From contig CAMNFR010000001.1 of assembly GCA_946537305.1 (NCBI GenBank), positions 1 to 64,000 of the forward strand: 64,000 nucleotides of DNA, in the 5' to 3' direction. Under the pieces are notes generated by a model. That model was given only the letters and a program-made list of their open reading frames with translations. It searched no databases and was not told the origin of the DNA. Below, one piece after another: positions 36,204-63,199 of this stretch (position 1 is the first letter of the stretch; every line of letters begins with the position of its first letter). The DNA comes from an uncultured Lachnospiraceae bacterium (GTDB taxonomy: Bacteria; Bacillota; Clostridia; Lachnospirales; Lachnospiraceae). A program made the position numbers and the translations under genes.

Positions 36204-36412
36204 TAGCGGGGCGCTCCGCGTCCGCCGGATATCACCTGCGGAACGCTCCGCGTCCGCCGGATATCACCTACGGAACGCTCCGCGCTTCGCGCTCCCGCGT
36301 TCCTCCACAATCTTCGGATTCCGCTCGTTTGCTTTCGCAAACGGCTGCATCCTCAGATTGTGGGCGCGTCGTAAAAACATGAGAAGATACGCTCGCGTAT
36401 CTTCTCATGTTC
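36204..36412. repeat. Compound repeat region between ilvC and thrC (32-bp tandem repeats plus hairpins)
   Basis: GCTCCGCGTCCGCCGGATATCACCTxCGGAAC units start at 36213 and 36245 with a partial unit at 36277; CGTTTGC-TTTC-GCAAACG; CCACAATCT...AGATTGTGG; perfect 16-bp stem AACATGAGAAGATACG-CTCG-CGTATCTTCTCATGTT at 36376-36411. Confidence 0.8.
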
Positions 36413-36429
36413 TTTCGACGCTGGTGATA

Positions 36430-47400: not shown

Positions 47401-47483
47401 TGCGGAAGATGGGACTTGAACCCACACGATCGTCGATCACATGATCCTTAGTCATGCCTGTCTGCCAATTCCAGCACTTCCGC
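47401..47483 (-). tRNA. tRNA-Leu (anticodon AAG)
   Basis: Acceptor GCGGAAG/CTTCCGC, anticodon stem CATGA/TCATG with loop CTAAGGA, long variable arm, T arm GGTTCAAGTCC. Confidence 0.93.
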
Positions 47484-47559
47484 CGACATCACAGGATTAT
47501 AGCACATACCTCCTGTTTGCGCAAGCAATTTTTTCGCAAAAATTCCATTTAAAAAGTAG

Positions 47560-47588
47560 TTGACATTTACTTTCGGATGAGGTAATAT
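47560..47588 (+). promoter_or_regulatory. Sigma-A-type promoter of the tandem tRNA-Leu genes
   Basis: TTGACA - 17 nt - TAATAT. Confidence 0.8.
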
Positions 47589-47618
47589 AAGCAAGTGCCG
47601 TGAGAACGGAGACAAATT

Positions 47619-47703
47619 GCAGACGTGGCGGAATTGGCATACGCGCATGATTCAGGTTCATGTCCATATTACTTGGGTGCGGGTTCAAGTCCCGCCGTCT
47701 GCA
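47619..47703 (+). tRNA. tRNA-Leu (anticodon CAG), copy 1
   Basis: Acceptor GCAGACG/CGTCTGC, anticodon stem CATGA/TCATG with loop TTCAGGT, long variable arm. Confidence 0.95.
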
Positions 47704-47739
47704 CTTTCTTTTCTCTTTGGCAACAACTTCATAAGGCTT

Positions 47740-47824
47740 GCAGACGTGGCGGAATTGGCATACGCGCATGATTCAGGTTCATGTCCATATTACTTGGGTG
47801 CGGGTTCAAGTCCCGCCGTCTGCA
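47740..47824 (+). tRNA. tRNA-Leu (anticodon CAG), copy 2
   Basis: Same 85-nt sequence as copy 1. Confidence 0.95.
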
Positions 47825-47826
47825 CG

Positions 47827-62829: not shown

Positions 62830-62859
62830 ATCATAGCTGTCACAAAGGCAGTTTGAAAA

Positions 62860-62932
<73 letters not shown>

Positions 62933-62939
62933 TTTTTTG

Positions 62940-63122
62940 TTACTATTCACAGCCAGGCGAAAACCTGAGAACAGCCGGTTCAAGCTTGCTTGTAACCGGC
63001 TGTTAACGGGTTTTCATCTGGCGACAATGACACAGGCACAGACATAAGCGCTGAAAGCGCGACAGGCTGACGCAGTCAGACTGGTCTGTGTCTTGTCATT
63101 TCGGCAGGGCTGTGAATAGTAA
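62940..63122. repeat. 183-bp nested inverted-repeat element (MITE-like or structured RNA candidate)
   Basis: Perfect 15-bp terminal inverted repeats TTACTATTCACAGCC / GGCTGTGAATAGTAA; inner stems AACAGCCGGTT/AACCGGCTGTT and AATGACACAGGCACAGAC/GTCTGTGTCTTGTCATT. Confidence 0.85.
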
Positions 63123-63199
63123 TCTTTTTGTTATCTATATCCCCGGGGAATGCTTTCCTAATATACAAAAATGACCGGCGCGGCCAGGAGAAAAAGTAT

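Follow-up and report, generated by a model that had tools for sequence, protein, structure and literature searches.

What is the nested inverted repeat that lies just downstream of a tRNA-Thr gene in an uncultured Lachnospiraceae bacterium: a non-autonomous mobile element (MITE), or a structured RNA? An initial annotation of the window, by which we mean the entire 64,000-nucleotide stretch of DNA that was analysed, offered both readings. We conclude that the element is very probably a MITE with an IS66-type partner, given its inverted ends, 8-bp target duplications, dispersal, absence at orthologous loci of relatives, and the existence of IS66-type elements with the same ends. The structured-RNA reading captured a fold that is real and covaries, but the copies provide no evidence of acting as RNAs in situ. 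The features of the locus are listed below. R1 is a covariance model built from five members of the family, with matches accepted at E <= 1e-4.

62859 to 62933, plus strand: tRNA-Thr gene, anticodon CGT, whose 3´ end together with the T-tract is the insertion target (ARAGORN; Rfam RF00005)
62931 to 62938, plus strand: left 8-bp target-site duplication, CTTTTTTT (sequence; family-wide duplication statistics)
62939 to 63123, plus strand: complete MITE, 185 nt (R1 match of 212.6 bits, R1 including the window sequence; fold)
62939 to 62954, plus strand: left terminal inverted repeat, GTTACTATTCACAGCC
62953 to 63021, plus strand: domain A, a long hairpin with a G(CTTG)C loop at its tip (sequence, fold, covariation)
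63026 to 63100, plus strand: domain B, a stem bearing two small hairpins (sequence, fold, covariation)
63047 to 63060, plus strand: small hairpin AGCGCTGAAAGCGC, with a GAA triloop (sequence, fold)
63067 to 63079, plus strand: small hairpin CTGACGCAGTCAG (sequence, fold)
63108 to 63123, plus strand: right terminal inverted repeat, GGCTGTGAATAGTAAT
63124 to 63131, plus strand: right target-site duplication, CTTTTTGT, matching at 7 of 8 positions (sequence; family-wide duplication statistics)

Every arm of the nested structure that had been named in the initial annotation is present, although its limits required adjustment. Specifically, the element extends one base further at each end than the 62940 to 63122 first assigned, and its terminal repeats, described as perfect over 15 bp, are one base longer at the left and pair at 15 of 16 positions. 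The distance to the tRNA gene is 5 nt rather than 7 because ARAGORN places the end of tRNA-Thr at 62933. As had been proposed, the element lacks coding potential, with no convincing open reading frame in its 185 nt. The predicted RNA fold is multibranched and has an energy of -107.3 kcal/mol, compared with -57.1 +/- 4.0 for shuffled sequences (z -12.7), none of 200 being equally stable. Elsewhere in the window, three tRNA-Leu genes lie within 430 bp (47401-47825), two of which, both CAG, are in tandem (ARAGORN).

A solitary, unconserved element would have spoken for neither reading, and this one is neither. The same genome carries a second full copy (contig C2, 11609-11793) that is 95% identical to the window element and is bounded by a perfect TCTATTTT duplication, and more diverged copies are located on contigs C3, C4, C5, and C73, giving 6 matches in total. 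R1 matches were found in 53 of 299 genera of Lachnospiraceae, often in multiple copies; the search scored 8 candidates per genome, and many carriers have at least 7 to 8 matches. End-sequence matches (34 forward and 41 reverse) indicate about 40 copies in genome G035, and G256 (50 and 37 matches) has at least about as many. A pattern scan of named genomes yielded at least 119 stretches, and the named carriers among the matches listed include [Clostridium] symbiosum, Blautia parvula, Schaedlerella, Catenibacillus, Eisenbergiella, and Pseudobutyrivibrio, all of which we take to be Lachnospiraceae. No match was recovered in a similarity search of plasmids, and viral contigs gave six exact 16-mer matches. 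Literature searches on the end sequences and on IS66 MITEs in Lachnospiraceae found nothing relevant; the family is large, comes from gut Lachnospiraceae, and is apparently undescribed.

The members analysed share a common plan in which a terminal stem encloses domain A, a long hairpin usually tipped by G(CTTG)C, and domain B, which carries one or two small hairpins. Families within a genome are of constant length. Shorter forms are also present, both as internal-deletion derivatives of 79-97 nt and as bare end-to-end hairpins of 34-36 bp. Most copies examined reside within AT-rich intergenic DNA. One member, at G012 C32:6517-6703 (loci L100/L074), is situated between the 3´ end of a 23S rRNA gene and two tRNA genes, and thus apparently inside an rRNA operon. 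In G170 (locus L104, 1352-1517), a TwoAYGGAY RNA (RF01731) abuts a copy of the family and overlaps it by 17 nt. A short distance downstream of the C2 copy (L007, 1610-1794) is a promoter-like TTGACT-TATAAT pair belonging to a lipoprotein-like gene, whose expression the copy could thus influence.

One sign of mobility had been overlooked in the initial annotation: the window element is directly flanked by an 8-bp direct repeat, CTTTTTTT and CTTTTTGT, with a single mismatch. Across the family, the 8-mers abutting the two ends match at 7 or more positions in 34 of 63 copies (8/8 in 25 and 7/8 in 9), whereas cross-pairing of flanks predicts 0.77. This signal is essentially confined to the exact element boundary (32 of 60 copies at shift 0, versus 0-3 of 60 once the right-hand 8-mer is displaced), and exact flanking repeats peak sharply at length 8, with 24 copies having exactly this length. 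The check for target-site duplications that had been suggested therefore reveals one of fixed length, at 7/8 in the window copy. Several copies lack a duplication, including seven of seven in G170, whose copies have CGAATTATTCAC ends and CC/GG flanks. Because the left duplication spans the 3´ end of tRNA-Thr and the T-tract, the tRNA remains whole after insertion. The idea that the element uses a tRNA 3´ flank as its target is thus borne out for the window copy, though no family-wide preference was shown.

Comparisons with relatives agree with mobility in that seven congeneric genomes retain the asd-tRNA-Thr synteny but not the element, and the element is likewise absent from the locus of the C2 copy in relatives. 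An empty site in the strict, flank-to-flank sense was not obtained because the congeneric flanks diverge right at the insertion; regardless, absence holds at both orthologous loci tested. With 6 matches in its own genome, about 40 copies in G035, and orthologous absence, the element is multicopy and dispersed among nonorthologous sites.

A MITE should share its ends with an autonomous transposon, and the ends of elements with matches to the IS66 transposase domain (PF03050) were inspected. These include a distinct clade with GTTACTGTTCA-type ends and 8-bp duplications. In G346, the transposase occupies a 2.27-kb unit with inverted ends GTTACTGTTCAGGGGGCGGGG, and the ends of its homologues from other genera are very much like these, with GTTAC preceding a stretch of the NNTTCA[CG] type. 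Both ends can be recognised in seven elements (L213, L214, L215, L216, L218, L220, and L352) and one end in three more; 8-bp duplications flank L214 (GCCGGAAT), L220 (GTATTAGA), and L352 (CAAAGCCC). L352 is an intact 2.4-kb copy in G002, which belongs to the same genus as the window, and its ends (GTTACCATTCAC) share an identical 12 bp with one end of the MITE copy on C2. Pfam confirms the assignment of the GTTAC-end clade to IS66, and with the NCBIfam IS66 equivalog model the score falls slightly short of the cut-off (161.8 versus 180). These ends are not shared by other IS66 loci of the genomes concerned. The likeness between these transposons and the MITE, about 12 bp, is confined to the outer 12-14 bp, and visual inspection of the loci examined revealed no shared interior. 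The assembly from which the window was taken is 83% complete and contains no partner transposase, and co-occurrence of the two element types over the 299 genera is no better than chance (2 of 9 IS-bearing genera, with about 1.6 expected). A search for an autonomous element with the exact 16-bp ends returned only wide pairs that enclose ordinary genes (1.6 kb on G014 C12 and 3.5 kb on G035 C15), and the G014 pair comprises two separate mini-hairpins rather than one IS.

Mobilisation in trans by the GTTAC-end IS66 clade is the most likely mechanism to judge from these sequence likenesses. An IS66-family transposase supplied in trans would most likely bind the GTTAC/GTAAC-type inverted ends, mobilise the element, and insert it into AT-rich 8-bp targets that are duplicated in the process. 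The window copy inserted into the tRNA-Thr T-tract without disrupting the tRNA.

Why, then, should a MITE have so elaborate a fold? One answer is that the locus encodes a functional multibranched RNA, or appends one to the tRNA-Thr transcript, perhaps as a divergent form of the Clostridiales-1 RNA (RF01699). Between genera, 91.8% of pair cells are standard and both sides have changed in 66 of 69 pairs, and the covariation score is 0.546, as opposed to 0.141 for shuffled controls and at most 0.078 with slid partners, although fitting the alignment to the model inflates these figures somewhat. The plus strand is the more stably folded of the two in 12 of 13 genera, and its average advantage over the minus strand is about 8 kcal/mol. 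G-U exceeds A-C by 81:34 between genera (60:33 minus one column pair). Recent copies vary less at internal paired sites than at unpaired sites (11.6% versus 19.4%, p 0.002), and the general layout and loops, the CUUG loop among them, resemble those of RF01699, in which three hairpins lie within a closing stem, but domain B of the MITE is a branched stem. These signals favor an RNA, but others do not. By a simple ORF heuristic, the orientation of copies relative to neighbouring genes is unbiased (++ 17, -- 15, -+ 13, +- 8). Among recent copies within genomes, G-U and A-C are similarly frequent (29 versus 23, p 0.49), and 13 compensated changes compare with 36 other mismatches. The covariation that had been proposed as a check is therefore found between genera, whereas pair changes in recent copies are mostly uncompensated. 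Moreover, RF01699 matches the window element at 27.8 bits, mainly through hairpin 1; this is 20 bits below the cut-off of 48, so the element is not a member of that family, and Rfam matches of the sampled members are likewise sub-threshold, none reaching any gathering score over the element. Given also that orthologous loci lack the element and that exact 8-bp duplications demonstrate its mobility, we consider a structured RNA improbable. Setting the strong fold between genera beside its decay within genomes, we conclude that spreading lineages probably keep the structure and that copies, once settled, mostly decay. A role in mobility accounts for this pattern better than does an RNA role for each copy.

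Two further explanations accept the hairpins but assign them differently. A REP-like palindrome whose single-stranded hairpins are the substrate of a mobilising HUH enzyme of the Y1 (RAYT/IS200) type could explain the hairpin architecture, the strand-specific loop vocabulary, and the 34-36-bp minimal hairpins that have the same ends. However, HUH elements are not known to leave target duplications, and the exact 8-bp duplications common in this family largely refute such a mechanism, which the presence of the same ends on DDE-type IS66 elements also opposes; its chance of being correct is very small indeed. An immobile intergenic palindrome, whether arising by chance or selected as, for example, a terminator, would suit the position after a tRNA and its T-tract, yet it is already refuted by the fold z score, the homologous copies in 53 genera, and the target duplications, leaving a probability that is practically negligible.

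The loops of the MITE hint at which molecule folds. Among distinct triloops on the plus strand, 60 of 74 are GNA, 45 of these being closed by C-G, compared with 3 of 69 in shuffles and 1 of 73 on the minus strand. The 92 tetraloops include 28 GNNA and 41 CNNG loops and no UNCG loop. Extraordinarily stable mini-hairpins of DNA follow the rule of a GNA or GNNA loop closed by a G-C pair (PMC4686876). That the MITE loops follow this rule suggests that the relevant folded molecule is single-stranded DNA, although shared loop ancestry or template-switch repair of palindromes could also give rise to the pattern. We tentatively prefer a DNA-level role in spread: the inner hairpins may have been kept because the folded single strand helps the element spread, perhaps because it binds a protein, shields an intermediate, or permits self-repair through template switching, rather than for a functional RNA from each copy. 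A stronger version holds that the multibranched fold of one strand, with its C-GNA-G mini-hairpins and C-TN-G loop, is selected as DNA and is needed for DDE (IS66) spread, which would make RF01699 a sister DNA repeat with the same loop vocabulary rather than a small RNA. This version seems unlikely.

If the MITE reading is correct, a large family of gut Lachnospiraceae gains a candidate partner in the GTTAC-end IS66 clade. It also means that a transposable DNA element can show base-pair covariation of the overwhelming kind that is commonly taken to prove a functional RNA. This calls for caution in RNA discovery based on covariation and is relevant to Clostridiales-1. The strand-specific bias toward GNA loops makes the role of DNA folding in such elements testable.

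RF01699 was among the candidate structured RNAs listed in 2010 (PMC2864571). The window's own genome has 13 copies above the cut-off, and 11 congeneric genomes have between 3 and 32 dispersed matches apiece, which marks RF01699 as a dispersed repeat and not a lone sRNA gene. The 2010 listing apparently scored it as not being a cis-regulator. Like the MITE, RF01699 has a terminal stem, a first hairpin with a G(CTTG)C loop, and small C(GAA)G hairpins, and its copies use the same loop vocabulary and are multicopy in the same genomes. Unlike the MITE, it has different second and third hairpins, and its terminal stem differs at every locus, at times running into the flanks; copies examined for target duplications showed none above control. 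One RF01699 copy lies in the window itself (36262-36429, minus strand, 125 bits), adjoined by a partial tandem repeat of its own end. Another, L097 (G003 C118:5859-6062; 57.9 bits), occupies the same tRNA-Thr 3´ flank, and its terminal stem has a right arm (AAAATAAAAGAAGC) complementary to that flank, which lacks the element in G004.

ERIC/IRU, BOX, and Correia (NEMIS) elements resemble the MITE in being short, intergenic, hairpin-forming, non-coding dispersed repeats of bacteria. By general description, they are set apart by unrelated sequence, other host groups, and other ends. The single-transposase IS66 clade with GTTAC ends (L213-L220 and L352) has in common with the MITE its terminal ~12 bp, of GTTACYRTTCAS type, and its 8-bp duplications; these elements are 2.0-2.4 kb in length and encode a transposase of ~550 amino acids, whereas the MITE carries none.
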